A stretch of DNA of 22,053 bases. Origin: a virus. The position numbers and the translations under genes were made by a program. The DNA is taken from IMG/VR virus record IMGVR_UViG_3300035698_010011, positions 1 to 22,053 of that record. The stretch is one strand, 5' to 3'. Positions 3,044 to 22,053 of the stretch are shown here, one piece after another (within the stretch, counting starts at the first letter, position 1; each line of letters begins with the position of its first letter). The notes below the pieces were generated by a model. It made no database searches, had not been told where the DNA came from, and worked only from the letters and a program-made list of their open reading frames with translations.

Positions 3044-3381
3044 TAGAAAAAAAAGTTATTGAATATTTTAAAGAACAAGGTTTTTATTGTGTTCATCAGA
3101 AAGTTTTTCCTGAACTACTCGTATTATCTCCATTAAGATCTGCAGATGGAAAGCCATTGAAAATACCTACTTTTTATAAACAATCTAATAGAACACAAAT
3201 CATTGTTCCTTTTTTAGTAACTGGAGTAATTTATAAGAAACCTACAAAAAAACAATTAAGGCAGATAGGTGTAACAGTTAGTTCAATAGCTGTTGCGAAA
3301 ATGAAGGGAAAAGATTTAGAATTTGAGATAATATCTTTGGAGGGGGTTGATGATGGAGGAAATGCAGGATATATTGGGTGA
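3040..3381 (+). CDS. Hypothetical protein upstream of terminase
   Basis: A 113-residue basic protein coupled to the nuclease by an ATGA overlap and preceded by AGGAG at 3030-3034 (spacing 5). It has an N-terminal helix (VIEYFKEQGFYCVHQK), a strand-rich middle and a segment KKPTKKQLRQIGVTVSSIAV. No helix-turn-helix of the small-terminase type is visible, although it occupies the place where that gene often sits. The start, a helix followed by GFYC, and basic character would also fit a degenerate nuclease-like fold. Its end overlaps the terminase start by about 30 bases. Function is unknown. Confidence 0.6.
   Translation: MIEKKVIEYFKEQGFYCVHQKVFPELLVLSPLRSADGKPLKIPTFYKQSNRTQIIVPFLVTGVIYKKPTKKQLRQIGVTVSSIAVAKMKGKDLEFEIISLEGVDDGGNAGYIG
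3339..3347 (+). promoter_or_regulatory. Shine-Dalgarno deciding the terminase start
   Basis: GGAGGGGGT holds both GGAGG (3339-3343) and AGGGGGT (3341-3347), which pairs with the archaeal 16S tail ACCUCCU with one G-U. It lies 2-6 bases before ATG 3350 and 5-9 before ATG 3353, so these ATGs are preferred over the TTG at 3347. Confidence 0.65.
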
Positions 3382-4813
3382 TTTAGATATGTCTGAATTC
3401 TTATTCAAATGTAGATTTGATTTTCAATTTTTCTGCAATAAGGTTCTATCTAATCTTTTTACTCCAGAATGCGGTGGATGTAAAGAGTTCCACGTAAAAT
3501 GGTTTAATATCTTCCAAGAAAACGGAAGAGTAATTATTGAAGCACCATCTGGTTTTTCAAAAACAACAATGGTTATTGCATATGTTATATGGTTTATTTG
3601 GAATCATCCAAACGAACCTGTGTTGATCACATCAAAAACATTACCACAGGGAATGAAATTGTTAGAGGTTATTAAGTCATGTATCGAAGAAAATGCCTTA
3701 CTAAGAGAATTAAAGCCAAGAGATGCAAGTCAGATTTGGTCAAGACAATTAATTAGAACAACAAATGGTTGCAGAGTAGCAGTAAGACCTTACTCTATTA
3801 ATATAAAAGGAGAAAGAGCAGGATTGATAGCGATGGATGAAGTTGATTCTTATGATGATCCAGACATTTATTTTGATTATGTTGTTCCAAGACTTACTCC
3901 TAAAGGTAAAATCTTAATGATTACAACAAAAGAGCCTGGAAATTCAATTACTAATCTTATAAAAGATAAAAAGTTGAAAGGTTACGCAACAGTTTCTTGT
4001 GCTGGAATAATTGATGAGAATGGAGATCCTGCAAAAAAACCATACTTCAAAAAAGAAGATGGGAAATATGTTTACAAATCACTATGGCCAGAAAGATTCT
4101 CAATGGAAAGGTTGGAAAAAAGCTACCATGAGTTAGGAGAACAATATTTTGAAAAGAATTTTATGAATAATACTAAAGTAGAGCAAGAGAAGAGTTTTTT
4201 CTCTATTGTTAAGTTTATGGATGGGTTTGATGATTCTATTGGATTCACTAAAGAAAGAACGGGCCCAATCTTTACTGGACATGATTTTGCCATGAGTACA
4301 AGTAAAAGAGCAGATTATGATTCAAATTGTATTATAGAAAAGAAAGGAAACTTTTACATAGTAAAATTTTTAGAAAAATACAGAAGACCTCCCGAAGCTA
4401 AAATGGAAAGACTTCAAGAGATCTATAAAGATTATGATCCAATTTACATGGTGTGTGATGAATCAAATGCAGGAAGTGTTCTGATTAGGGATCTGCGTGG
4501 TGCAGCATTACCAGTTTATCCTCAAAAATTTAGTGGTGGGCCCGGAGGAAGCAGAGCAGAATTATTAAAGGCATTACAGAACATAATAGATGCAGGACTT
4601 TTAGTTATTCCAAGAAAACCTGAAGATAATGTTGTCGAATTGACAAATGAATTACTTGAACAACTAATGGGATTTGTAATAGCAGAATCAAAAATAACTA
4701 AATTACCTACCATTTCATCTACTGCTTCGCATGATGATTTAGTAATGGCACTCGCAATGGCTGTAAAAAGAGCTAGTGAGGTTAGATCTGCTAGCATGGA
4801 TGGAGAATGGTAA
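3350..4813 (+). CDS. terL: Terminase large subunit (packaging ATPase-nuclease)
   Basis: A 487-residue motor protein that pumps DNA into the prohead and cuts it. ATPase domain: Walker A-like APSGFSKTT (residues 65-73), Walker B LIAMDE (159-164) with catalytic Glu164, coupling motif MITT (190-193). RNase H-like nuclease domain: D312 in GHDF, D370-E371 in VCDES, and the HDD triplet 461-463 near the C-terminus. The length is normal for the family. The P-loop GFSKT is a variant of the usual GxxKT/S. The N-terminus has C41-x2-C44 (ECGGC). ATG 3353 is an equally possible start. No small subunit is recognisable nearby. Confidence 0.95.
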   Translation: MMEEMQDILGDLDMSEFLFKCRFDFQFFCNKVLSNLFTPECGGCKEFHVKWFNIFQENGRVIIEAPSGFSKTTMVIAYVIWFIWNHPNEPVLITSKTLPQGMKLLEVIKSCIEENALLRELKPRDASQIWSRQLIRTTNGCRVAVRPYSINIKGERAGLIAMDEVDSYDDPDIYFDYVVPRLTPKGKILMITTKEPGNSITNLIKDKKLKGYATVSCAGIIDENGDPAKKPYFKKEDGKYVYKSLWPERFSMERLEKSYHELGEQYFEKNFMNNTKVEQEKSFFSIVKFMDGFDDSIGFTKERTGPIFTGHDFAMSTSKRADYDSNCIIEKKGNFYIVKFLEKYRRPPEAKMERLQEIYKDYDPIYMVCDESNAGSVLIRDLRGAALPVYPQKFSGGPGGSRAELLKALQNIIDAGLLVIPRKPEDNVVELTNELLEQLMGFVIAESKITKLPTISSTASHDDLVMALAMAVKRASEVRSASMDGEW

Positions 4814-4838
4814 AATATATAAATAAGTATTTCCTTAA
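4810..4838 (+). promoter_or_regulatory. Leaderless promoter of the portal gene (repeat copy 1)
   Basis: TATATAAA at 4816-4823 lies 29 bases from the ATG at 4845, so the transcript should begin at the start codon. The 29 bases 4810-4838 are identical to 6254-6282, and in both copies the ATG follows six bases later. Confidence 0.75.
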
Positions 4839-4844
4839 TAGACT

Positions 4845-6230
4845 ATGAAGTTTTTCGATTATTTTAAGAATAAGAATGTTAGGGCTAAATCTGTAGTCAA
4901 AGATATGGGACAGGCAACAAGTTTCAAACCAAACACATTCAGTACAGAGACCGTTATGACATCAGATAATATAACTCGTGTAGCATCCTCAGAATTAGAA
5001 CAGGCATATATTTCTGATCCTATTTATTTTAGTTCAATCAATAAACAAAATCAATTAATTATGGGTGCAGGCTATGATTTAGTTGGAGATATATCAAAGA
5101 AATGGGAAAAGTTTTTTGAGAATATTGGACTCATTGGAGACGATATGACTTGGAATGAAATGTTTGATCATATATTTCGTTATCAAATGATTTATGGTAA
5201 AGCTTTTATTTTAATAATTATGAATAAAAATAGAACTAAGGCAATTGACTTATTGCTTTTAGATCCTAAAAAGGTAGATTATGCTAAAGATCAAAGTGGT
5301 GGTGTTTTACTTTCTACTGACGGAAAGCAATTAGGTTATATGGTTTCAATACCTAGTTCTGCAGACGAAACGTATATCATAGGGGATAAAATGCCAGATA
5401 ATGTTAAGGTTGAATCAGGTAATGAAAAAAAGGTGTTCATTAAATCTGAAAGAATAGTTCAATATAAATTATATACTTTTGGAGATAGGTTATACCCTAT
5501 GGGATTAATCGAACCTTCTTATGTTTCTGTTTTAAGAAAAATGAATATCGAAGAAGCTCAAGCAAATGCGATTTATCAGAGAGGAAGTTATCCATTATCT
5601 GTTTCTGTAGGTGATGAGAATCATCATCCAAGACCACAAGATGTAGAAAAAGCTGCAAAAACATTTTCAAAGATTAAACACGATAGAGTAATTGCACATC
5701 CTTATTGGGAAGTTCCTACTGTTATAGAAGCTAAACAATCTGACGCTGTTGATAATGTTTTAGTTTATTTAAGAAGAAATCAGATTGCTTCTTTGAGTAT
5801 GCCTGAATCATTAGCTATTGGTTCTGGAGAATCTACAAATCGTGCAACATTAAATAATCAGCAAGCATTTTTAGAATATACTTTAATTGATATTGTTCAG
5901 AAGACATTAGCTACGACAGTTAAATACTTAATTAAACCAATTGCTAAGTTAAATGATTGGTCGGAGATAACTTTTAAGTGGGGAGATATAAGGGCCGAGT
6001 CTGAAATGGATAAAGCAGACACAATAATGAACGCAGTAAGATATGGTGCATTATCTCAAGCAACTGTTGATGCAACATTGAGAAATATATTAAATTTACC
6101 AACTAAAGAAGAGGAAAAAAAGATGGGCGTAACAAGTTCTACAGACGTTGGCGGCGCTGCTTTAGAGGACGAACAAGAAAAAAAGTCTGAAAAAGTAGAA
6201 GAAAAACCAACAGAAACTAAAAAAGAGTAA
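4845..6230 (+). CDS. Portal protein
   Basis: A 461-residue protein forming the ring at the capsid vertex through which DNA enters and to which the neck attaches. The order of features fits the HK97/SPP1-type portal: N-terminal segment with DPIYFSSINKQNQLIMGAGY, wing region with WNEMFDHIFRYQMIYGKAFI, LLLLDPKKV, stem/crown helices with RRNQIASLSMPESLAIG and NRATLNNQQAFLEYTLIDIV, and the GALSQATVDATLRNILNLP helix near the end. The last 40 residues are a charged Lys/Glu tail of low complexity. It lies directly behind the terminase and has its own leaderless promoter, which suggests separate tuning of portal dose. Confidence 0.9.
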   Translation: MKFFDYFKNKNVRAKSVVKDMGQATSFKPNTFSTETVMTSDNITRVASSELEQAYISDPIYFSSINKQNQLIMGAGYDLVGDISKKWEKFFENIGLIGDDMTWNEMFDHIFRYQMIYGKAFILIIMNKNRTKAIDLLLLDPKKVDYAKDQSGGVLLSTDGKQLGYMVSIPSSADETYIIGDKMPDNVKVESGNEKKVFIKSERIVQYKLYTFGDRLYPMGLIEPSYVSVLRKMNIEEAQANAIYQRGSYPLSVSVGDENHHPRPQDVEKAAKTFSKIKHDRVIAHPYWEVPTVIEAKQSDAVDNVLVYLRRNQIASLSMPESLAIGSGESTNRATLNNQQAFLEYTLIDIVQKTLATTVKYLIKPIAKLNDWSEITFKWGDIRAESEMDKADTIMNAVRYGALSQATVDATLRNILNLPTKEEEKKMGVTSSTDVGGAALEDEQEKKSEKVEEKPTETKKE

Positions 6231-6253
6231 AAAATATATATTTATATAAAATA

Positions 6254-6282
6254 GTAAAATATATAAATAAGTATTTCCTTAA
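6254..6282 (+). promoter_or_regulatory. Leaderless promoter of the protease gene (repeat copy 2)
   Basis: TATATAAA at 6260-6267 is 29 bases upstream of ATG 6289. The 29-base block is an exact copy of the one before the portal gene. A further AT-rich TATA-like string lies at 6234-6250. Confidence 0.75.
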
Positions 6283-6288
6283 GTATCT

Positions 6289-7521
6289 ATGACATTCAAA
6301 GATATTAATGCTGGAATCTTCGATTTAGGTGCTAAGAATATAGATATATCTAAGCTACCGATTACAATTAAGGATAAAGTTTTAATGGCTCCTGGAACTT
6401 GGAATGGAGAAACTTATTCTGAAGAACAGATTAATCTTGCTTTTCATAACATGAATTGGAATGATAAAGATTCTATTGGAATTGTAGCAGATCATGCTTC
6501 TAACGCTGTTGATGATGAAAATGCAAACGCAGGATTAAGTGTTCACGATTGGTTTGGGTTTGTTAGAAATGCTAGATTAGACTCAACAGGAGAAATATCG
6601 AATGTTCCCGGTGCAATTGTAGGAGATTTGGAATTACATGATTCTCAGATTGCTCAAAAATTAGTAAACGCAGGAGCTAAGTTCGGAATATCTCCTAGAA
6701 TTTATGGTGCTGAATTAACTCCAGGAGTAATTACTGATTTTTCCTTTAAACATTTTGCTGTTGTAACTAATCCGGCAATATCTAAAGCTTATATTAATTT
6801 ATCAAAAAAAGAAGATTTAGCAAGAGGAGAAGGCCAGGGAGTAGATGGTCCTAAACAAGGAGATGGCGGATCTGCTAAATGTGTTTGTCCTAAATGCGGT
6901 TATTCTATGGTTCACGAAAAAGGAACACCTTGTGCTGATATTAAATGTTCTAAATGTGGAACACAGATGGCGGGAAAATCATCTGATATGGAAGAATCAC
7001 AATCACCCGAAAAGGGAAACACAAGCTTGAAAGGGGGTTTAAAAGAAATGCAAAAACAAAAATTAGAAGATAAGAATAAGGCAGAAGATTTATCTAATAA
7101 AGTGGATAAATTGACTGATCAAGTTAGCAAATTGACATCTATTGTCGAGAAAACATTATCAAAAGATATGAAGAAAGATAAAGCTGAAGATAAAGCTGAG
7201 GAAGAAGTTGCACCTGAAGAATCTGTTAAAGAGGAAGCAGTAGCAGAAGAAGCTCCAGCAGAAGCAGAAGCTGAAGTAGCTGAAGATAAAGCTGAGGAAG
7301 TAGCTGAGGAAGAACCTGCAAAGGATGATTCTGAAGTTAAAGATATGGCAAAAAAACTGGAAGAGACAACAGCAAAATTAAAAGATTTAGAAAAACAAAT
7401 GAATACTCCAGAAAAAGCTGCAGTTAGAAAAGATCTTTCAGCAAATTCAAATCCAATGGTAAGTGGTTACTCCGCAGGAGATCATCAAATGTCTGAATTT
7501 TTGCAAGCAAACTATTCTTAA
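6289..7521 (+). CDS. Prohead protease fused to scaffold, with zinc ribbon
   Basis: A 410-residue protein. Residues 1-172 look like an assemblin-type (herpesvirus/HK97/Mu) prohead protease: His69 in VADHAS and Ser135 in FGISPR are the probable catalytic pair, and FSFKHFAVVTNPA is the usual closing strand. Residues 198-226 form a zinc ribbon (C198, C200, C203, C215, C220, C223; CPKCGY...CSKCGTQM). Residues 255-295 are a heptad-like coiled coil, 298-346 a Glu/Ala/Lys-rich stretch, and 355-372 another coil; the tail ends FLQANYS. Protease plus scaffold in one chain recalls herpesvirus UL26. Capsid protein follows immediately. The catalytic assignment is by motif only. Confidence 0.85.
   Translation: MTFKDINAGIFDLGAKNIDISKLPITIKDKVLMAPGTWNGETYSEEQINLAFHNMNWNDKDSIGIVADHASNAVDDENANAGLSVHDWFGFVRNARLDSTGEISNVPGAIVGDLELHDSQIAQKLVNAGAKFGISPRIYGAELTPGVITDFSFKHFAVVTNPAISKAYINLSKKEDLARGEGQGVDGPKQGDGGSAKCVCPKCGYSMVHEKGTPCADIKCSKCGTQMAGKSSDMEESQSPEKGNTSLKGGLKEMQKQKLEDKNKAEDLSNKVDKLTDQVSKLTSIVEKTLSKDMKKDKAEDKAEEEVAPEESVKEEAVAEEAPAEAEAEVAEDKAEEVAEEEPAKDDSEVKDMAKKLEETTAKLKDLEKQMNTPEKAAVRKDLSANSNPMVSGYSAGDHQMSEFLQANYS
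7032..7038 (+). promoter_or_regulatory. Internal Shine-Dalgarno inside the protease gene
   Basis: AGGGGGT can pair over seven bases with the 16S tail (one G-U) and sits nine bases before the in-frame ATG at 7048. The same string serves the terminase start at 3341-3347. Confidence 0.5.
7048..7521 (+). CDS. Probable nested scaffold protein (internal start)
   Basis: In-frame ATG codon 254 of the protease-scaffold gene is preceded by AGGGGGT at 7032-7038. Starting here yields a 157-residue protein holding only the coiled coil, the acidic Ala/Glu-rich region and the C-terminal tail, with no protease or zinc ribbon. The start falls exactly at the junction between the linker and the first coil. Lambda C/Nu3 and herpesvirus UL26/UL26.5 use the same design to make many scaffold copies per protease. 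This is an inference from position and Shine-Dalgarno; the Met could instead be internal only. Confidence 0.5.
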   Translation: MQKQKLEDKNKAEDLSNKVDKLTDQVSKLTSIVEKTLSKDMKKDKAEDKAEEEVAPEESVKEEAVAEEAPAEAEAEVAEDKAEEVAEEEPAKDDSEVKDMAKKLEETTAKLKDLEKQMNTPEKAAVRKDLSANSNPMVSGYSAGDHQMSEFLQANYS

Positions 7522-7522
7522 A

Positions 7523-8596
7523 ATGAAACATACAATTAGAGATTTATCCGAAACAGGAGCAAGCAGTGTTCAGGGAACAACAGTTGGGACTAAATATGGT
7601 CTACAACCTATTGAATTCCTTAGAGAAATAGTAGATGCTGCGAAGAATAGACACTATTTTGCTCAAGCAGTTAGAATTATAACTCTTTCAAATACTCACG
7701 ATGTAACTATTCCAAAGAGAAGTGCATATGAGGGAAGAAGCGGCATGTCTTTCGATACTACTGAAAGAACAGCGGCTGATATTAGCTGGACAACTATGGA
7801 TAATTTAGCGAGTGTAATCGCTACTCCATCACTTGTTTTAGCTGGATATGCTATAACTCAAACAGCGATCAGAACAAATGCTTTAAACATTACTCAAGAA
7901 GCTAAAGAAGAACTTACTTATGCTTTAGGTGACAGAGTTGATTACGCAATTGCTACGGCAATTGGTGACGCATCAAGTACAACAAGTACAACAAGCGGTG
8001 CACAAAGTGTGTATGGTGGAGATGCTACTGCAGGATCTGGCTTAACTGCTGGAGACGTATTAACTACTGAAATCTTTGCTGAGGCAAGAAAACTTCTTAT
8101 GACAGTAAATAAACAATATAGAGCTAGCACTGGTGCTGGTGGTGGATATGGTGCGCTAACTGGAACTGTAACAGGTAACGGATGGCAAAACTCACCTGAT
8201 GATCCTTTCATAATGTTTATTGGACCTGCTCAAGAAAAAGCTTTCCTTACAGATTCTCAATTTACTAACGCTGGCGAATATGGAGCCAGAGAAGCTCTTC
8301 TTAACGGAGAGATTGGAAAATATTTAGGCGTGAAAATTGTAGTAACAAACAACGTAGAACAGGTTGCAAGCGGTTCGGCTTGTCCTGATGCATCTGCTGG
8401 CGCTGCCACTGTCAATATGACAAGATGTATTATGACAAAAGCAAAGAAAGCATGTGCACTTGTATGGGGTAGAGCTCCAGAACTTAAAGTTTGGGATTAC
8501 AACGAAAGAGATCAAGTAAGACTTAGTATTGTATCTGAGTACGCAATCACACTTATCCAATCTGACGCTATAGTCTTCGTAGACGTAGCTGATTAA
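7523..8596 (+). CDS. Major capsid protein, HK97 fold
   Basis: A 357-residue shell protein. The start is ATG 7523, one base after the protease stop; the frame stays open 60 bases further upstream but that would overlap the scaffold end and has no signal. HK97-fold signs: the spine-helix region (residues about 115-150, ITQEAKEELTYALGDRVDYA), an Ala/Gly/Thr-rich A-domain insertion, the GEYGAREALLNGEIGKYLG motif followed by VKIVVTN, and the closing RDQVRLSIVSEYAITLIQSDAIVFV strand region. There is no long N-terminal delta domain, in agreement with a separate scaffold. A T-rich terminator follows. It has no promoter of its own and is probably expressed from 6254-6282 and by coupling. Confidence 0.92.
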   Translation: MKHTIRDLSETGASSVQGTTVGTKYGLQPIEFLREIVDAAKNRHYFAQAVRIITLSNTHDVTIPKRSAYEGRSGMSFDTTERTAADISWTTMDNLASVIATPSLVLAGYAITQTAIRTNALNITQEAKEELTYALGDRVDYAIATAIGDASSTTSTTSGAQSVYGGDATAGSGLTAGDVLTTEIFAEARKLLMTVNKQYRASTGAGGGYGALTGTVTGNGWQNSPDDPFIMFIGPAQEKAFLTDSQFTNAGEYGAREALLNGEIGKYLGVKIVVTNNVEQVASGSACPDASAGAATVNMTRCIMTKAKKACALVWGRAPELKVWDYNERDQVRLSIVSEYAITLIQSDAIVFVDVAD

Positions 8597-9038: not shown

Positions 9039-9293
9039 ATGGTTAGAAAAAAAGTTGAACTTAAACTAGAAAGGAAAAGGTTAGTGCGAGCTGGAAAAAT
9101 CTTAGAAGCGGACAAAATACTTGAAGAATATTGGAAGTTATGTGGGAGTAATGTAAAAATTACTGCTAAAAAATATACAAAAGAAGATCTACAAAAAATG
9201 GATTTTCGGTCTTTAAGAAAAATTGGTTATAGGGTAGGAACTAAAGATAGAAGTAAAGTTGGCCTCATTAAAGAAATTTTAGAATTACAATAA
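9039..9293 (+). CDS. Basic protein with SAP/HeH-like C-terminus
   Basis: An 84-residue basic protein. Residues about 47-84 (YTKEDLQKMDFRSLRKIGYR then KDRSKVGLIKEILEL) resemble the helix-extended-helix domain of SAP/HeH and Rho-N types, in which L-R-x-I-x-x-x-x-G-x-x-x-x-S-K-x-x-L-I-x-x-I is the signature. The N-terminal half is a charged helix ending in EEYWKLCG. In phages this domain is often found in small head-region proteins. It lies in the head block, and its stop is followed directly by the next ATG. DNA contact inside the head or at the portal is a possible role. Confidence 0.6.
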   Translation: MVRKKVELKLERKRLVRAGKILEADKILEEYWKLCGSNVKITAKKYTKEDLQKMDFRSLRKIGYRVGTKDRSKVGLIKEILELQ

Positions 9294-9485
9294 ATGGCAG
9301 TAGCAATAACAGTAAGCACAAATGGAAGGTTTAAAGTTATCTCTAGTGTCAATTCTACATTGGTTACAGCAATTAGTGAAGTAATAACTCAATTGGAAAA
9401 AGAGCAAGTTTCACATAATCAAACACAATTTAGTTTTACACACGATGGTACAAATTATGTTTACCTGGCGAGTGTAAAGTTATAA
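9294..9485 (+). CDS. Small hypothetical protein
   Basis: A 63-residue protein beginning immediately after the previous stop (TAAATG). It seems to consist of a strand (MAVAITVSTNGRFKVIS), a helix (LVTAISEVITQLEKEQV) and two strands (QFSFTHDGTNYVYLASVKL), a small alpha/beta fold. No motif is recognised. It closes the head block before the surface-protein cassette. Confidence 0.65.
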   Translation: MAVAITVSTNGRFKVISSVNSTLVTAISEVITQLEKEQVSHNQTQFSFTHDGTNYVYLASVKL

Positions 9486-9488
9486 ATA

Positions 9489-9629
9489 ATGGAAGATTCG
9501 AAAGATATGACTCCTGGAGGTACCGAAGGTACTGAAAGTAGGGATGGCATCGTAGAAAGATCTAAACTTTCTGATGAAATTAGTATAACAAAAAATGGAA
9601 ACAAAGTTAAAATCGAAAACAGGGATTAA
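9489..9629 (+). CDS. Possible 46-residue hydrophilic protein
   Basis: ATG 9489, three bases after the previous stop, opens 46 codons ending at TAA 9627-9629. The product is hydrophilic and acidic at its start (MEDSKDMTPGGTEGTESRDG), with no motif. Its end overlaps the next gene by 35 bases in another frame, more than usual here. It fills a gap of about 110 bases in a region without other gaps, which is the main support. Confidence 0.45.
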   Translation: MEDSKDMTPGGTEGTESRDGIVERSKLSDEISITKNGNKVKIENRD

Positions 9630-10068
9630 AGGATGGTTTACCCTAAAGCATATAAGAAATGGAGAAGTAATAGAAGAGAGAACCATAAACAATACAGTTG
9701 TAAATGCAGGAATTGCACAAATTGCAGGACTTATTCTTACTGATATAGGTGGAACAGCATTTGACTATATTGCTTTCGGAACTGGAACAACTGCAGTTGC
9801 AGTTACAGATACGACCTTAGAAACAGAGATAACTACCGGTGGCGGAGAAAGAACAGCTGCTACAGGAACAAGAACTACTACTTCAGTTACAAATGATACT
9901 GCTCAATTAGTTGCAACATTCACATTTACAAGTAGTTTTGCTTTAACAGAAAGTGGCGTTTTAAATGCCGCAGCTGTAGGAGTATTACTTTCTAGACAGA
10001 CTTTTGCTGCAATAAATGTAGTAAATGGTGATACTATTCAGGTTGCTTGGAAGATACAGGTATCATAA
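9595..10068 (+). CDS. Fibre/tail-surface-like structural protein
   Basis: A 157-residue Thr/Ala/Gly-rich beta protein. It contains IKGWFTLKHIRNGEVIEERT, then NTVVNAGIAQIAGLI, the IAFGTGTTAVAVTDTTLETEI block, and a final strand series. This layout ("NxVxNxGlxxla...aiGtGtta.a.tdT.L..E") is one I recall from small phage structural proteins found near tail-fibre genes. It has no signal peptide. It opens the 6-kb surface cassette, and its stop is followed at once by the next ATG. Whether it sits on head or tail cannot be told. Confidence 0.65.
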   Translation: METKLKSKTGIKGWFTLKHIRNGEVIEERTINNTVVNAGIAQIAGLILTDIGGTAFDYIAFGTGTTAVAVTDTTLETEITTGGGERTAATGTRTTTSVTNDTAQLVATFTFTSSFALTESGVLNAAAVGVLLSRQTFAAINVVNGDTIQVAWKIQVS

Positions 10069-10233
10069 ATGGAAGGAAAGTTAAGATATTCAGGACAGGC
10101 CAAAGCAATAATTGACGGATTAAAGGAAGAATCCTTTGATATTGAGAAATTTGAGAAATGGTTTAAAGATCAATTTGTTGTTGGTGGTGGACATGTAGTA
10201 GAATATCTGTCATATTTAAAAAAATTAGAATAA
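10069..10233 (+). CDS. Small hypothetical protein, 54 residues
   Basis: ATG 10069 directly follows the TAA of the preceding gene, and TAA 10231-10233 ends it one base before the next ATG, so it fits the packing of its neighbours perfectly. The product (starts MEGKLRYSGQ) is a charged, mostly helical protein ending EYLSYLKKLE. No motif is recognised. The exact tiling of the interval makes it likely to be real. Confidence 0.65.
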   Translation: MEGKLRYSGQAKAIIDGLKEESFDIEKFEKWFKDQFVVGGGHVVEYLSYLKKLE

Positions 10234-10234
10234 A

Positions 10235-10555
10235 ATGGCTTGGAACGACACTAAGAGCTCAGGAGATTTAATCTCTAGTGCTGATTATAATTCCGGAGTT
10301 ACTGATCAAGAAACAAGAGGAATCCCTCAAAGTGAGGAAAATAGAGGTAGTGATTGCTCTGGTTTAGATGGCCAGGCGAATAGAACATTAACATTATCAG
10401 AATCAACAATTAAATCAAGCGGTGTAGTAATTGTCAAGAATGGAACATCCTTACATGAAGGAGCTGCATTAGATTATACAGTAAGTTCTAACATTATTAC
10501 ATTTGTAGGATCTGTATGGGATACAGATTATATAAGAACTATATATTTTACATGA
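10235..10555 (+). CDS. Small tail/fibre-type structural protein
   Basis: A 106-residue protein. Its start MAWNDTKSSGDLISSADYN is the pattern (W-x-D-x-x-x-x-G-D-x-I-x-A-x-D-x-N) that often opens phage fibre or tail-tip proteins, where it folds into a short trimerising segment. The rest is beta-rich with VVIVKNGTSLHEGAALDYTV and ends IRTIYFT, like a C-terminal beta-domain with a loop that displays a hydroxyl-rich turn. It overlaps the next gene by four bases (ATGA). A trimeric fibre part is the best reading. Confidence 0.6.
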   Translation: MAWNDTKSSGDLISSADYNSGVTDQETRGIPQSEENRGSDCSGLDGQANRTLTLSESTIKSSGVVIVKNGTSLHEGAALDYTVSSNIITFVGSVWDTDYIRTIYFT

Positions 10556-12831
10556 AATCAACAAAATTATTTTTAAGCTTAGGCATTTTTATTATGTGTT
10601 TAGCAATAGTTGTAGCAATCCCATGGAGTCCAAGTGGGAATGTAGATTTAAAAAATGTTTTCAATATGACAAATCTAAATTTCTTTGATAGTTTTACAAT
10701 GGTTGGAAATGTTCTAATGAATATGAATAATATTACTGGAGCAGATCTGATTAGTGCAGTAACATTAGTTGGAGATGGTGGAGGAATAACTGGTTTAACA
10801 AATACTCATTTGCATGACATATCCAATATTACTAATTTTAATTACTCTTACAACCAAACAGATGGTTCAATTGTTTTTATTAATGCAGGAGATACAAATC
10901 TACAAACAAACATCAGTGACGTAAATAGCTCTTTAAGTTCCAGAATAGATGGAATATCTACTGCAGGAAATTCTTCATTTAACCAAACATTGACAGATGG
11001 TTTATACGCAGGAATAGAATGGGATTACAATCAAACATACACTGATGGAACATATAATGCAACATATGATAAGTGGGCGTATAATCAAACAGGAGATTAC
11101 TCTTACAACCAAACAGAGACTTTTAATTCTACCCAGTTTGAGAAGAATGAAGGAGATTGGCAAATAATTACAAGTTGGCTTACTTCCTTTGTAAATTCTT
11201 GGTTTAGTGGAAAAGATTCAGATGATTTATCCGAAGGAGTTGTTAATCTTTATGATAATCAAACTTGGAATGAAACAAAGGGGGATGAATCCTATGCGGG
11301 AATAAAGTGGGCGTATAATCAAACAAGCGAAGGAACATTTAACCAAACTTATCAAGATTACTCTTACAACCAAACTGAACCTGCAAACGACTACACAGAT
11401 TTAGCGAGCCAAGGATTACAAACAAACATCAGTGACGTGAATAGTTCCTTAGATAGTAAGTTCAATGATTTTAACTATAATATGACTATAGTTAGCGATT
11501 ATAATTACAATCAAACAACAGGATCCTTAGTGTTCATCAACACAGGAGATACAAATCTGCAATTAAACATCACAAATGTAAATTCATCACTTGATACTAA
11601 ATTCAATGACTTTAACTATAACATGAGTACACCTTATGATGATTTTAATTACAATATGAGTGATGGAAGTTATAATATTACTTACCAGGACTTTGCTTAT
11701 AATCAAACTTATACTGATGGTACCTACAATGTAACTTATGATGGATATGGTGATTATGCTTATAATCAATCTGACGGAAGTTTCAATATAACCTATCAAA
11801 ATTTTGCATACAACCAGACTTACATAGATGGAACATTTAATCAGACTTATCAAAACTATGCTTACAATCAATCTGATGGAAGTTATAATATTAGTTATGA
11901 AGAATGGGCGTACAATCAAACAATACCAGCTAATGAGTATGCTGATTCATTATTAATAACAACTTATTTTAATGCTTCAGTTTTAGGTACACCAGTTGGA
12001 ACACCTCAAGGATCTTTATCTGATATTATATCTTATGATAGTGTACCCTACAATGTTTCAGAGAGCGCAAGTGATTTAACTTTCTTGATTAATTTTACAT
12101 CTGTTGATGACTTCAACCAAATAATTGTTAGATATAGAACTGAAGCGGCAGAGAGTCATGCTGTTACTCTGTATATTTGGGATTATGATGAACTTGGTTG
12201 GGAATCTTATATTATTTTGTCTGATACAGATGGCGAGTATGTTATAATCACTACAGGAGTGTATGATGCTGATGAACATACTGATGGAGGAATTGTTCAA
12301 GTAAAGTTGGAAACAGATAATGGGCCACCTTCTAGAACTCATAAATGGGGTTTTGATTGGGTAACAATTTCGAAGGGAGTTGCAACACCTTTAGGAACTG
12401 AAATTGATCCGCTCTCTATTCACAAAGATGGTGATGTTGCACTAACAGGGAATTGGGAAGCAGGAGATTATAACATTTCAGCAGATAACTTTATAGGATC
12501 TTGGAATAATTACTCTAGAGTTAATGATACACAGATTGAAAATAATGATGGATATTTTAACATTTTAGAAAGTTGGTTAAGTACATTGTTTGATACTTTA
12601 TTTGGAACAAAAGATTCAGATGATTTAAGTGAAGGATCTGTTAATCTATACGATAACCAAACATTCAATCAAACATTAACTGATACTGAATACTTAGGAC
12701 TCTCTGGAGGAAATATGACTGGCTCGTTGAATATGTCTAATAACACAATTGAAACAGTGCTTAATATAACTTTTACTTATGGAGGGTATATCAGAGATAA
12801 TACAACTGCTTTGATTATTGGTCATAGTTAA
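10552..12831 (+). CDS. Exported, sequon-packed fibre-like glycoprotein candidate
   Basis: A 759-residue protein. Start ATG 10552 (ATGA overlap) is preferred over an upstream in-frame ATG at 10516, because it puts a Sec signal peptide at the N-terminus (KSTK, then LFLSLGIFIMCLAIVVA). Residues about 37-460 are degenerate repeats of DGxYNxTYxxxAYNQT type; I count about 50 N-x-S/T sequons in total. Residues about 484-612 look like a beta-sandwich carbohydrate-binding-type domain. The C-terminal part is fibre-like (DVALTGNWEAGDYNISA; LSGGNMTGSLNMSN). A DDLSEGxVNLYDNQT segment occurs twice. It is probably N-glycosylated outside the cell; whether it ends in the virion or on the host is open. Confidence 0.75.
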   Translation: MKSTKLFLSLGIFIMCLAIVVAIPWSPSGNVDLKNVFNMTNLNFFDSFTMVGNVLMNMNNITGADLISAVTLVGDGGGITGLTNTHLHDISNITNFNYSYNQTDGSIVFINAGDTNLQTNISDVNSSLSSRIDGISTAGNSSFNQTLTDGLYAGIEWDYNQTYTDGTYNATYDKWAYNQTGDYSYNQTETFNSTQFEKNEGDWQIITSWLTSFVNSWFSGKDSDDLSEGVVNLYDNQTWNETKGDESYAGIKWAYNQTSEGTFNQTYQDYSYNQTEPANDYTDLASQGLQTNISDVNSSLDSKFNDFNYNMTIVSDYNYNQTTGSLVFINTGDTNLQLNITNVNSSLDTKFNDFNYNMSTPYDDFNYNMSDGSYNITYQDFAYNQTYTDGTYNVTYDGYGDYAYNQSDGSFNITYQNFAYNQTYIDGTFNQTYQNYAYNQSDGSYNISYEEWAYNQTIPANEYADSLLITTYFNASVLGTPVGTPQGSLSDIISYDSVPYNVSESASDLTFLINFTSVDDFNQIIVRYRTEAAESHAVTLYIWDYDELGWESYIILSDTDGEYVIITTGVYDADEHTDGGIVQVKLETDNGPPSRTHKWGFDWVTISKGVATPLGTEIDPLSIHKDGDVALTGNWEAGDYNISADNFIGSWNNYSRVNDTQIENNDGYFNILESWLSTLFDTLFGTKDSDDLSEGSVNLYDNQTFNQTLTDTEYLGLSGGNMTGSLNMSNNTIETVLNITFTYGGYIRDNTTALIIGHS

Positions 12832-12832
12832 A

Positions 12833-14791
12833 ATGGTAAATTATAAAGCTACATCTGCAATAGGAATTGCAATTTTAATTCTTGTTGCTACTCTTGGATA
12901 TAATTTAACTGAATTTTCTTATTATTGTGATAATGAACCTGAAAAATTAATCGAATGTAATTATGGAATTTCAGGAGGATTAGGGACTAGATGTTATTTA
13001 AACGAAGAGCATAATAGGTGGGATTATTGTAAAACTGGATGGGAAAGAGTAATGGATCATATAGAAATTAGTTTTGACAGTATTAGTGCTTTTGAATTTG
13101 AAAACATTAAAGACTATAATGCTGAAACAAAAGAGATAACTATTTCAGATACTTTCTTAAAACTATGGACAACAAATGAAGTAGCAAGATACAAGTTATT
13201 AGAAAACACAGATGTTTGTGTTTATAATTGTTATGCGATTGGAAGTGCAACCTTAAATGAAAAAGGAAGATTATTTGATGATAGAGATTTTATAGATGAT
13301 AAAGAAATCAATGTTGCATTAAATAATAAGATATATATTTCTAATAATAGGGAATTAAAAACAAGAACATTTATTTCAACAGAAACAATATGTAAGGATA
13401 AAATTGAGTTTTCAGATTGTATTAAGGAAGATGTAATAGTTGAAGAAGAATATTATGAATATAATTGGGTAGAATATAATGGAGAAGTTGTAGAACCAAA
13501 TAGTTATTATTGGAAGTTAGAAGCAAGTAAGGATGCAGAACAATCTGTTGATTGGGCAGTTAGTATGTTTGGAATATCTTTAGAAGAAGTTAGAGAAGAT
13601 TGGGCATGGTGGATAGGAACTGCACCTGACCTTTATTGGAAATTAAATGAAGCATCTGGAAATGCATTAGATAGTTCAGGCAATAGTGTTACATTAACTA
13701 ATACTGGTATAACTTATGCTGCAGGTAAACTTAACAACGCAGCTTCTAGTGACGGTGCAGATAGAAATTTATTAACAACAACAACAACAACCTTTACAAC
13801 TAATGATTTTACTATTGCTTATTGGATAAAATCTTCTGATGCAGCAACAGGAATAGTTTATGGAGATAATGATGCATGGACAACTGTAACAACTTTTGGT
13901 AGTTCATTAAATGGTGGTGGAGCTGGTAAGATAGATTTTCAATGGAGTGGTGGAACATTACAATCTGCACAAACAGATTTAAATAATGGTTCATGGCACA
14001 GGGTTGTAGTAGTTAGAGAAGGGTTAGGCGCAGGAGAACTGAAGATGTATATTGATGGAGATACAACTCCAGATGCTACAACAACAGCAAATGTAGATTT
14101 TACAGCACAGGGATGGATGTTATTTGATAATGTTGGAGTTGCACCATTTGAAGGAAGTATAGATGATTTCCAAGTGTTTAATGGATTAGCATGGACTACA
14201 GGAGATGTAACAGAAGATTGGAATAATGGTTTAGGAAAAGAAGGAGAAGTTGTAGATCCAAGATTTGCAAATGCAACATTGTCTTTTCCAGCTAATGCTA
14301 CAAACTTTACAATTCCCAATCCAACATTAGGATGTAACTTTACAGGTAGTCCACAAAATAATATAACAGATGTGCAAGTATTAGTTTATGATAGTGCAGA
14401 CAACTTAGAATATGATAGCACAGAAAGTGGGTTGGAATCAATCAGCTATAATAAAACAAACTGGCAACCTAATCTTCCTGAAGTAGATAGTTATTACTGG
14501 AGTTGTTTTATGCTTGGCGACGGAGGATTGAACGCTTCAACTATGAATTGGACTTTCAATATATTATTAAATATAAGTGGTTATGTTTTAGATGCAAATG
14601 GAGATTTTTCTGAAGCAACAATAGGAATACTTAATCAAACATCTAATAAATTAGTGGCTAATGTTTCCACAAATGGTTCTGGATTCTATTCATATGGCCC
14701 TTTAGATTCAGGAAATTATACAGTTTTTGCTTATAACGAATCTAATTTTAGTAGAGGTGGAGATATAAAACCTCATGTTATAATACCATGA
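12833..14791 (+). CDS. Membrane-anchored LamG/Ig-like/CarboxypepD-reg adhesin
   Basis: A 652-residue protein; ATG 12833, one base after the previous stop, is preferred to TTG 12818. Residues 8-25 (AIGIAILILVATLGYNL) are a membrane anchor or signal. Residues 32-200 hold several Cys (C32, C42, C54, C66, C129, C133, C187, C196), probably disulphides. Residues 265-452 are a LamG/concanavalin-like domain (DLYWKLNEASG, FTIAYWIKS, WHRVVVVRE, MYIDGD, GSIDDFQVFN). Residues 483-577 are Ig-like, and 580-640 a carboxypeptidase-regulatory-like strand set. Many sequons lie in the last third. An AAC tract at 13774-13791 codes for a Thr run. An extracellular binding protein is the likely role. Confidence 0.75.
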   Translation: MVNYKATSAIGIAILILVATLGYNLTEFSYYCDNEPEKLIECNYGISGGLGTRCYLNEEHNRWDYCKTGWERVMDHIEISFDSISAFEFENIKDYNAETKEITISDTFLKLWTTNEVARYKLLENTDVCVYNCYAIGSATLNEKGRLFDDRDFIDDKEINVALNNKIYISNNRELKTRTFISTETICKDKIEFSDCIKEDVIVEEEYYEYNWVEYNGEVVEPNSYYWKLEASKDAEQSVDWAVSMFGISLEEVREDWAWWIGTAPDLYWKLNEASGNALDSSGNSVTLTNTGITYAAGKLNNAASSDGADRNLLTTTTTTFTTNDFTIAYWIKSSDAATGIVYGDNDAWTTVTTFGSSLNGGGAGKIDFQWSGGTLQSAQTDLNNGSWHRVVVVREGLGAGELKMYIDGDTTPDATTTANVDFTAQGWMLFDNVGVAPFEGSIDDFQVFNGLAWTTGDVTEDWNNGLGKEGEVVDPRFANATLSFPANATNFTIPNPTLGCNFTGSPQNNITDVQVLVYDSADNLEYDSTESGLESISYNKTNWQPNLPEVDSYYWSCFMLGDGGLNASTMNWTFNILLNISGYVLDANGDFSEATIGILNQTSNKLVANVSTNGSGFYSYGPLDSGNYTVFAYNESNFSRGGDIKPHVIIP

Positions 14792-15171
14792 AAGTAAAAT
14801 ATCTATTATGTCTAGCAATTCTATTAATATGTTCTGGCCTTATTTCCTCTTATGATGCACCTAGTTATAACTCTGTTAATCTTTCTTTGACAGACAGTTA
14901 TACAGCACCAAGTTATATGTCTGTAAACCTTACATTAGATGGAGCTGTAACCCCTACTGAATGTTCACCTACAATAAACCAAGACTGGTTAATAACAGAT
15001 GAGCAGATTTGTGATGGAGTTTCAAGAGATATTGGGACTGGTTCAATAAAAATTGGAGTATCGGGTAAGTTAATATTAATAAATGAAGCTAATGTTAGTG
15101 CATCAGGATTAGAATTATTGGTATCAGGAGATAAGGTTTTTATAAATCATGGGAGTGAATTAAGAATATAA
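14788..15171 (+). CDS. Small exported protein with repeats
   Basis: A 127-residue protein coupled to the adhesin by an ATGA overlap. The N-terminus (MKVKYLLCLAILLICSGLISS) is a clear Sec signal, possibly of lipoprotein type with a Cys in the hydrophobic core. It is followed by the duplicated motif DAPSYNSVNLSL / TAPSYMSVNLTL, then PTECSPTINQDWLITDEQIC and a beta-rich end. Two of the three mature cysteines could pair. The APSYxSVNLxL repeat is a pattern I associate with secreted DPANN proteins. A short right-handed-coil-like end (GSIKIGVSGKLILINEANV...) fits a stalk. Function is unknown. Confidence 0.7.
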   Translation: MKVKYLLCLAILLICSGLISSYDAPSYNSVNLSLTDSYTAPSYMSVNLTLDGAVTPTECSPTINQDWLITDEQICDGVSRDIGTGSIKIGVSGKLILINEANVSASGLELLVSGDKVFINHGSELRI

Positions 15172-19854: not shown

Positions 19855-20064
19855 ATGTCAGATTCAGCATTACAAGGAAAAATACAAAAGAATAAGGCTT
19901 CTAACGGAGATTATCTAGCTGATGCTCTTTTAGATTTATGTTTTTTTACTTCTTATAAGATTGAAGAATTATTAGCTATGCCTCCGAAAAGATTAAATAG
20001 ATTGTTAGATAGATTAGAATTATGGACAAAAGTAAGAATGAAATCTGCTGGATGTAAAATATAA
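19855..20064 (+). CDS. Second tail chaperone-like protein (T-domain-like)
   Basis: A 69-residue helical protein that starts directly after the preceding stop (TAAATG). KIEELLAMPPKRLNRLLDRL followed by ELWTKVRMKSAGC resembles the downstream part of gpGT-type chaperones, which end with helices binding the tail tube protein. In lambda-like phages this part is made by a -1 frameshift; here it has its own ATG and would be made by reinitiation. Its stop overlaps the tape measure start. Confidence 0.62.
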   Translation: MSDSALQGKIQKNKASNGDYLADALLDLCFFTSYKIEELLAMPPKRLNRLLDRLELWTKVRMKSAGCKI

Positions 20065-21095
20065 TGGCATTATTCAAACACATAGTTGAAACTGAATTGA
20101 AATTTGTTACAAGAAATGGGAAAAAGGTAGAGGAATCTACAAGACAAATAAATCAATTAGGACATGGTGTTCAACAAATGACTTCTCATCAGAAGAAATG
20201 GGATAAGCAAGGAAAAGAAAATATAACTACTACAGATAGGACAGTAAGGGGATTCCAAAGATTCCAAATGGAACAATTAGGAGTTATGTTTGCAGGTATG
20301 GCCCTTAATCGAGCTATGGCAAATTTAAATGCTACTTCAAGAGAATGGTTAGGTATTGGAGAATTAATGGATACTATGATGGGTGTCACAATGTTGCAAT
20401 CAAATATGGATCTTCTTAACTTTGGTGTTCTGCCTTTATTTGATGCTTTAATTAATTTACCACCAGAAGCGCAGAAAGCACTAGGTTATATTTCATTAGG
20501 ATTAGAGGGTGCAGGAGCAGCTATGATGACTGGTGGACAATTTGCTTTAGGAATCAATTCTATGATTACAATGATCCAAAAACTTGGGTTTGCCTCACTT
20601 ACCACTAAAGGATTATTACTAGGATTAGGAGGAATTGGACTAATAGGAATTGGTGTAACATTAGCAATAGGTTCAATTACAAGTGAAGGTGGAACAAGTG
20701 TTTTGATGGCATTAGGTGCCGGATTAGCTGTAGCATTAGGTACTGTTTTATTGGGAGCAAGTGTAGTTGGTGGAATTGCATTAGGAACAATTGTTGTAAC
20801 TGGGTTATTATTATATCAAATGGCTAGTCAAATGGCTGAACAATCAAAGGCCTATGATGCACTTGGAACAGATATTCCATTATCTGAAACACCAAATATA
20901 AGTGAGGCTATTAGAATGCGTGGAACTAGAATGACCACTAATACATTAAGTCCAGAATTACAAGCAGGTGTAAATGGTGTAAATATGAATGTTAATTACA
21001 ATGTAAATGTTTCTGATAAAGTAGAATTTGAAGAGATGCTAAAAAAGAACAATAGTGAATTAACTGCGGATGTAAGGAGGATGACTCAAGCATAA
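20064..21095 (+). CDS. Tail tape measure protein (short)
   Basis: A 343-residue protein whose length sets tail length. Residues 1-80 are charged and coiled (LKFVTRNGKKVEESTRQINQ), a helix pair follows (FQMEQLGVMFAGMALNRAMA), and residues about 180-260 are a long Gly/Ala/Leu-rich hydrophobic stretch (GLLLGLGGIGLIGIGVTLAI and on), which may insert into the host membrane during DNA entry. The end has the NMNVNYNVNVSDKVEFEEML pattern common near tape measure C-termini. At about 1.5 angstrom per residue, the tail would be near 50 nm, short for a siphovirus. Start ATG overlaps the previous TAA. Confidence 0.78.
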   Translation: MALFKHIVETELKFVTRNGKKVEESTRQINQLGHGVQQMTSHQKKWDKQGKENITTTDRTVRGFQRFQMEQLGVMFAGMALNRAMANLNATSREWLGIGELMDTMMGVTMLQSNMDLLNFGVLPLFDALINLPPEAQKALGYISLGLEGAGAAMMTGGQFALGINSMITMIQKLGFASLTTKGLLLGLGGIGLIGIGVTLAIGSITSEGGTSVLMALGAGLAVALGTVLLGASVVGGIALGTIVVTGLLLYQMASQMAEQSKAYDALGTDIPLSETPNISEAIRMRGTRMTTNTLSPELQAGVNGVNMNVNYNVNVSDKVEFEEMLKKNNSELTADVRRMTQA

Positions 21096-21551: not shown

Positions 21552-22053
21552 ATGATTAAAAAGATACTTAGTGCATTCTTGGTTGTAGTTTTCCTAGCTT
21601 CGTCTATCTATTTTTTAATGCCAGATGCAGTTAAGATAGAAATTGGTAAGACTAATACAGAATATTCAGTATGGGAAAATGAAGGCTGGATTTTGGCTGC
21701 AACTGAATATGTTAATCTATATGATGGTAGTACCAAGATGCGAGCCAAAAGTAGGGATTTAGTTTATTGGGAAGATCAAGAGAACGCTTATGTAAGTAGA
21801 ACTTCTATATGGAAGGATAATATTACAACAAATCAAACTTATACTTTTAATAAAGCAGCAGAGAATGTAGAGGATTTGCCAGCTAAAAATGAATTTGAGT
21901 GTATCAATTGTGTTGGCAAAATTGTGCATTACGAAATAAGAGATATTCTTTATGAAGGAGATACTGCAATAATTGATAATCCTTTTTCCTTTGGTCACAA
22001 TATGATGATTGAATGGGAAGATGGTGCTTATTATTCTAAGGTATTTCAACAGA
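21552..22053 (+). CDS. Exported protein, partial (runs off the right edge)
   Basis: ATG 21552, one base after the previous stop, opens a frame that stays open to the window end (167 codons seen). The N-terminus MIKKILSAFLVVVFLASSIY is a Sec signal or anchor. The mature part begins VKIEIGKTNTEYSVWENEGW and includes YDGSTKMRAKSR, a CINC pair, YEIRDILYEGD and FGHNMMIEWEDGAYYSKV, with two sequons (DNIT, TNQT). This motif set is one I recall from secreted proteins of DPANN archaea and their viruses. An extracellular or membrane role near the tail-tip genes is inferred. Confidence 0.75.
   Translation, partial: MIKKILSAFLVVVFLASSIYFLMPDAVKIEIGKTNTEYSVWENEGWILAATEYVNLYDGSTKMRAKSRDLVYWEDQENAYVSRTSIWKDNITTNQTYTFNKAAENVEDLPAKNEFECINCVGKIVHYEIRDILYEGDTAIIDNPFSFGHNMMIEWEDGAYYSKVFQQ

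Follow-up and report, generated by a model that had tools for sequence, protein, structure and literature searches.

The window analysed here, the whole 22,053 bases of the IMG/VR fragment IMGVR_UViG_3300035698_010011, contains an ORF of 759 aa (10552-12831, on the plus strand, as are its parts and the terminase-to-capsid, small and Sec-led genes of the window given below) that specifies a Sec-led, sequon-rich protein of the tail-fibre type. Judged from sequence comparisons, export and N-glycosylation of this protein are jointly very likely, because the sequon excess goes with the signal in related viruses; in presumed bacteriophages, ORFs are not enriched either with or without a signal. As signal and sequon excess are paired in relatives as well, it seems that viruses of this kind produce fibre-like glycoproteins on the outer side of the cell membrane. 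In the mechanism proposed, a repeat protein of the tail-fibre kind, encoded by a tailed virus that probably infects DPANN archaea, would be made as a secreted glycoprotein. It would be exported by Sec and then lose its signal, many of its sequons would be N-glycosylated by the host oligosaccharyltransferase AglB, and it would fold outside the membrane into a fibre with a lectin-like beta-sandwich domain. Virions would take up the glycosylated fibre on leaving or lysing the cell and use it for adhesion.

Terminase, portal, (head-maturation) protease and major capsid genes at 3347-8596 provide a tailed-virus context and support the original prediction of a viral protein. The fibre gene is located between the major capsid gene and the connector and tail genes, and thus within the virion structural module. 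Its ATG at 10552 overlaps the stop codon of a small gene (10235-10555) as ATGA. The same overlap is found in the related virus L190 (14546), where a homologue of the small gene (44% identity) precedes a Sec-led fibre, and another homologue (47% identity) is present near such a gene in L210. Downstream of the fibre gene follow a second Sec-led gene with LamG lectin-like and CarboxypepD_reg domains (12833-14791; 17 sequons, 9.9 expected) and one for a third, small protein of 127 aa with a signal-like N-terminus (14788-15171). The tape-measure-like protein (20064-21095) is very short with only 343 aa, which suggests a short tail. Two genes past it, a further Sec-led protein is cut by the record end (21552-22053). 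It belongs to a conserved Sec-led glycoprotein family, found at the same distance from the tape-measure gene in L210 (10001-12478), where the gene directly precedes a baseplate-hub-like gene (hub assigned by eye). Its complete homologues are sequon-rich, with 36 sequons versus 11 expected in L210 and 51 versus 20.7 in L198.

A hydropathy rule served to call export signals, and the longest ORFs were taken as genes. By hydropathy and by eye, the N-terminus of the fibre, MKSTKLFLSLGIFIMCLAIVVA followed by IPWS, consists of a positive n-region, a hydrophobic core and a V-x-A-type cleavage site. This predicted signal peptide (aa 1-22, 10552-10617) looks cleavable and is conserved at the N-termini of the homologues from L049, L029, L190 and L334. 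In five viral fibres, those of the window, L049, L029, L334 and, more loosely, L190, a P-x-x-(D/N)-(I/V)-(N/D)-L-like motif follows the signal. The proposed routing through Sec is therefore supported. Translation that starts only after the signal, considered in the original prediction, is unlikely because of the ATGA coupling and the conservation of the signal in relatives; the next Met codons fall within or beyond the hydrophobic core. Beyond aa 60, no hydrophobic 19-mer was detected (maximum mean hydropathy 1.15), and hence no membrane anchor of the pleolipovirus type.

The number of sequons, N-x-S/T with x not being P, had been put at about 50, or about one per 15 residues, and is exactly 50 (33 NxT and 17 NxS). 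Most of them are found in a region of YNQT/YNxT repeats (aa 92-460, 10825-11931); 16 are N-Q-T, and Y precedes 21. In 5000 composition-matched shuffles of the fibre, 17.7 +/- 3.5 sequons were obtained with a maximum of 30, and the excess is about threefold. For the fibre alone, z is 8.4 for NxT and 3.3 for NxS. Only the +2 spacing is enriched in the fibre: no enrichment was detected for the spacings +1, +3, +4 and -2 or for NP[ST], D-x-[ST] and Q-x-[ST], and the reversed motif [ST]xN occurs 21 times. In the cytoplasmic virion proteins that the window also encodes, sequon numbers are at or near expectation. The 50 sequons sit in repeats and are hence not 50 independent events; relatives were used to address this non-independence.

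Three adjacent tRNA genes at 213-439, Asn(GTT), Gln(TTG) and Thr(TGT), match the three amino acids of N-Q-T, the sequon that occurs most often. The trio was considered as a supply line for YNQT and rejected as too weak, since it ranks 11 among 1140 trios by excess use in the fibre, a post hoc comparison with an array cut by the record end. Elsewhere, tRNA genes for Ile and Thr are present in L002 and one for Thr in L003, and none in the other relatives scanned.

Relatives were found by their terminase and also by other genes or patterns, and ORFs of at least 150 aa with and without signal were compared. In the related viral contigs, 27 signal-bearing ORFs contain 604 sequons versus 229.5 expected, and 169 signal-less ORFs 421 versus 398. 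In comparison contigs, whose class is presumed and which are presumably mostly from bacteriophages, the numbers are 84 versus 77 for signal-bearing and 3358 versus 2969 for signal-less ORFs. Since some relatives had been fetched with the YNQT pattern, the test was repeated without the window and with only those relatives that the terminase had selected. In these, NxT is enriched 3.2-fold and NxS 1.9-fold in signal-bearing ORFs, with about 1.05-fold in signal-less ones (Mann-Whitney p 1.2e-4). Enrichment tracks the signal also in proteins without such N/T-rich repeats, for example in L198 and L210. In G335, an apparently circular relative of 43,892 bp, one large signal-led protein of the structural region is enriched (51 sequons versus 20), and the fibre-like proteins without a signal have about as many sequons as expected (18 versus 17.5 and 8 versus 8.1).

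Could the protein nevertheless be an ordinary cytoplasmic tail fibre, its N-terminus only a short membrane-touching segment and its sequons a by-product of N/T-rich repeats? Signal calls based on hydropathy and the position of the sequons within repeats would fit such a view, but it is very unlikely, as the enrichment is confined to one spacing, with NP[ST] and the neighbouring spacings flat, follows the signal even into proteins without such repeats, as in L198 and L210, and is accompanied by a signal that nearly all other fibres of the same motif, many with a readable start, do not have (see below). Selection for N-glycosylation sites is thus supported by both the single enriched spacing and the link to the signal.

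The tail-fibre character of the protein is apparent from two canonical copies of the phage tail-fibre unit TDDLxEGxxNLY, SDDLSEGVVNLYDNQTWNETK (aa 223-243, 11218-11280) and SDDLSEGSVNLYDNQTFNQTL (aa 689-709, 12616-12678). They are followed by a C-terminal fibre end (GGNMTGSLNMSNN...GGYIRDNTTALIIGHS, 12697-12828) devoid of a further hydrophobic segment. Profile searches matched many phage fibres, and together with the repeat units bear out the description as tail-fibre-like. Neither the viral collection nor annotated phages yielded a match on direct look-up, and searches of Pfam, PHROGs, NCBIfam and PDB sequences revealed no family. When the viral collection was scanned for TDDLxEGxxNLY, 122 non-redundant ORFs were available for comparison, and the three highest sequon excesses are those of the three Sec-led ones, L190 (z 9.4), the window fibre (8.8) and L049 (6.6). 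No signal was detected in 118 of the 119 other ORFs, many with a readable start, some on contigs without one, and many contigs ending inside the fibre gene; the sole ORF flagged is not enriched in sequons. A sequon follows the motif in all five units of the three Sec-led proteins versus 2 of the 156 units from the remaining viral proteins (p 2.5e-8). The unit reads NLYDNQTWNExR in the former and NLYYTxAR in the latter, so that the first unit of the window fibre has a sequon where other phages have YYTxxR.

Between the two units, the region aa 474-634 (11971-12453), which has a homologue in L207, was modelled from three sequences as a beta-sandwich with a mean pLDDT of 59 and 70-80 in the core. 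Structure matches in the PDB were weak and mostly to carbohydrate-binding modules, and the best viral ones were lectin- or collagen-type fibre proteins of uncultured tailed phages (E 4e-6). Tentatively, the model may be described as a jelly-roll-like domain with a CBM- or lectin-like fold.

By these sequence criteria, the combination of signal and sequon richness is common among these uncultured viruses, and the structural modules of relatives encode between one and several proteins that are both Sec-led and rich in sequons. The exported fibre, described as unusual in the original prediction, is not a single oddity, as relatives and DPANN chromosomes contain such proteins too. Signal-led proteins with the sequence YNPFTGKLDY are sequon-rich in archaeal-type viruses (76 versus 23-24 in L206/L213; also L207 and L188); among annotated phages no close relative was found. 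In comparable slots after the portal gene, a signal-less fibre (FNPLTGKLDY) is present in L186 versus signal-led proteins in L188 (YNPFTGKLDY) and L190. Some relatives possess signal-less fibres in addition to Sec-led proteins, and the latter therefore need not replace the virion fibre. In L003 (86% terminase identity), different Sec-led proteins occupy the fibre locus (9131-10386), one with a LamG-like stretch, indicating a cassette swapped between close relatives. A signal followed by YNPFTGKLDY is also encoded in L204 (1199-2005), L205 (1696-2334) and L209 (83-1318), presumed bacteriophages, without sequon excess; Sec-led fibre-like proteins may thus not be limited to archaeal viruses. The 43.9-kb relative L186 encodes, in addition, a Ku-domain protein (5317-6099). 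The same test for signal and sequons, which may miss haloarchaeal Tat signals, revealed no Sec-led sequon-rich protein in the cultured archaeal tailed viruses HFTV1, HSTV-1, psiM2 and Drs3.

The host is probably a DPANN archaeon, in agreement with the original prediction. This assignment follows from three observations: fibre homologues in DPANN genomes, an STT3/AglB gene in five of six DPANN genomes with such proteins, and an archaeal-type thermosome in the related virus G345. The YNQT/YNxT region has a homologue in the DPANN genome G103 (35% over 217 aa), encoded on the chromosome and followed, in the same order as in the window, by a Sec-led LamG gene; the two LamG proteins gave no convincing alignment. 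The locus is near genes for the DNA polymerase D large subunit, Cdc6, a proteasomal ATPase, LonB and ArgRS, and 39 kb read around it contained no virus structural genes. Among 371 genomes from the phylum to which a Pacearchaeota genome belongs, 6 contain fibre homologues, and those whose surroundings were read are chromosomal. Their presence in DPANN chromosomes beside housekeeping genes implies that such proteins also exist without a virus. A conserved DPANN chromosomal locus (L344, 13590-19310; L358, 4633-9320) consists of a Sec-led fibre homologue and a GSGNYxEGIYGSGNY-type gene, with a LamG gene between them in L344, and adjoins a DDE transposase. In virus G345, whose terminase is a distant match and which also has a signal-led YNPFTGKLDY protein, the thermosome subunit of 468 aa is encoded at L336 10815-12221. 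Searches of DPANN genomes for the major capsid protein gave only weak matches, without Sec-led fibres, those for the tail-tip domain no match, a result that carries no weight, and the stretch read in DPANN proviruses with distant terminases contained no sequon-rich Sec-led gene.

Even less probable than a cytoplasmic fibre is a bacterial host with its own N-glycosylation of the Campylobacter PglB type. Such a host would fit the window itself, where no gene was recognised as an archaeal hallmark, but the DPANN fibre homologues, the STT3/AglB genes in five of six DPANN genomes with such proteins, the thermosome of G345 and the lack of enrichment in signal-bearing ORFs of presumed bacteriophages all speak for an archaeon.

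In the accepted view, fibres of tailed viruses are built in the cytoplasm, beyond the reach of AglB. No tailed virus is known that makes a part of its virion outside the membrane, nor is a route known by which an exported protein could reach tails assembling in the cytoplasm. This favours a different fate, in which the exported glycoprotein never joins virions and is displayed on or around the infected cell as a virus-borne surface glycoprotein of the host type. Held by an uncleaved signal or by S-layer binding, it could change adhesion or cell contact, mask receptors or exclude other viruses, ideas that the original prediction had put forward in part. The chromosomal homologue of G103 with its LamG neighbour, and those of the other genomes, fit this fate, which we regard as a serious though doubtful possibility. 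Against it are the position of the gene within the virion module and its coupling to a gene of that module, the canonical repeats with signal-less counterparts in comparable slots, and the signal, the sole candidate for a membrane anchor, which looks cleavable.

Docking of the secreted fibre glycoprotein on virions is slightly favoured over display on the cell, its own probability being just short of even. Counted in its favour are the place in the structural module, the coupling to the small gene, the slots of L186, L188 and L190, and the second Sec-led family, which in L210 is located at a tail-tip position; counted against it are the four cultured viruses without Sec-led, sequon-rich proteins and the DPANN homologues without virus genes around them. 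That archaeal tailed viruses of a whole group finish their particles outside the membrane, with fibres passing through Sec, receiving host glycans and docking on or after exit, is a tentative proposal. If true, the infectious particle would wear host-type sugars, and the rule of wholly cytoplasmic assembly of tailed virions would be broken. In general, a whole group of uncultured archaeal tailed viruses with fibre-type proteins that pair export signals with selected glycosylation sites would reveal a new route of assembly or else a new type of cell-surface glycoprotein made by viruses, in hosts dependent on cell-cell contact. The signature of a signal plus an N-x-T excess can be used to find such proteins and may help to assign archaeal hosts to viral contigs.

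In the literature on archaeal tailed viruses, no report of exported tail fibres was found. The usual fibre of Caudoviricetes is cytoplasmic and without export signal, whereas that of the window has a Sec-type signal conserved in relatives. With tailed-phage fibres of the TDDLxEGxxNLYxTxxR type it shares the unit, a GGxMTGxLxMxxN element near the C-terminus and the place in the structural module, but these have no export signal (118 of 119 ORFs) and no sequon in the unit (two exceptions in 156). Spikes of pleomorphic archaeal viruses of the HRPV-1/HFPV-1 type are likewise virus-encoded surface proteins, N-glycosylated as is predicted for the fibre; they belong to enveloped viruses, whereas the window fibre has tail-fibre repeats and no hydrophobic segment past the signal. 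The haloarchaeal tailed virus HRTV-DL1 resembles the window virus as an archaeal tailed virus with sequons in its attachment protein, ORF24, although these are few, nine in number. In the passages concerned, faint glycoprotein bands from virions are described, its virion proteins are possibly glycosylated, infection was unaffected when aglB was deleted, and an exported fibre is not described (PMC10384203). In a DPANN co-culture, cryo-tomography revealed antennae on the host S-layer with tips that recall tail fibres (PMC11329633); a link to viral fibres is speculation. The DPANN chromosomal Sec-led YNxT-repeat proteins, for which no family name was found, differ from the window fibre in being chromosomal with no virus genes nearby, but share with it the signal, the sequon excess, homologous repeats and, in G103, the LamG neighbour.
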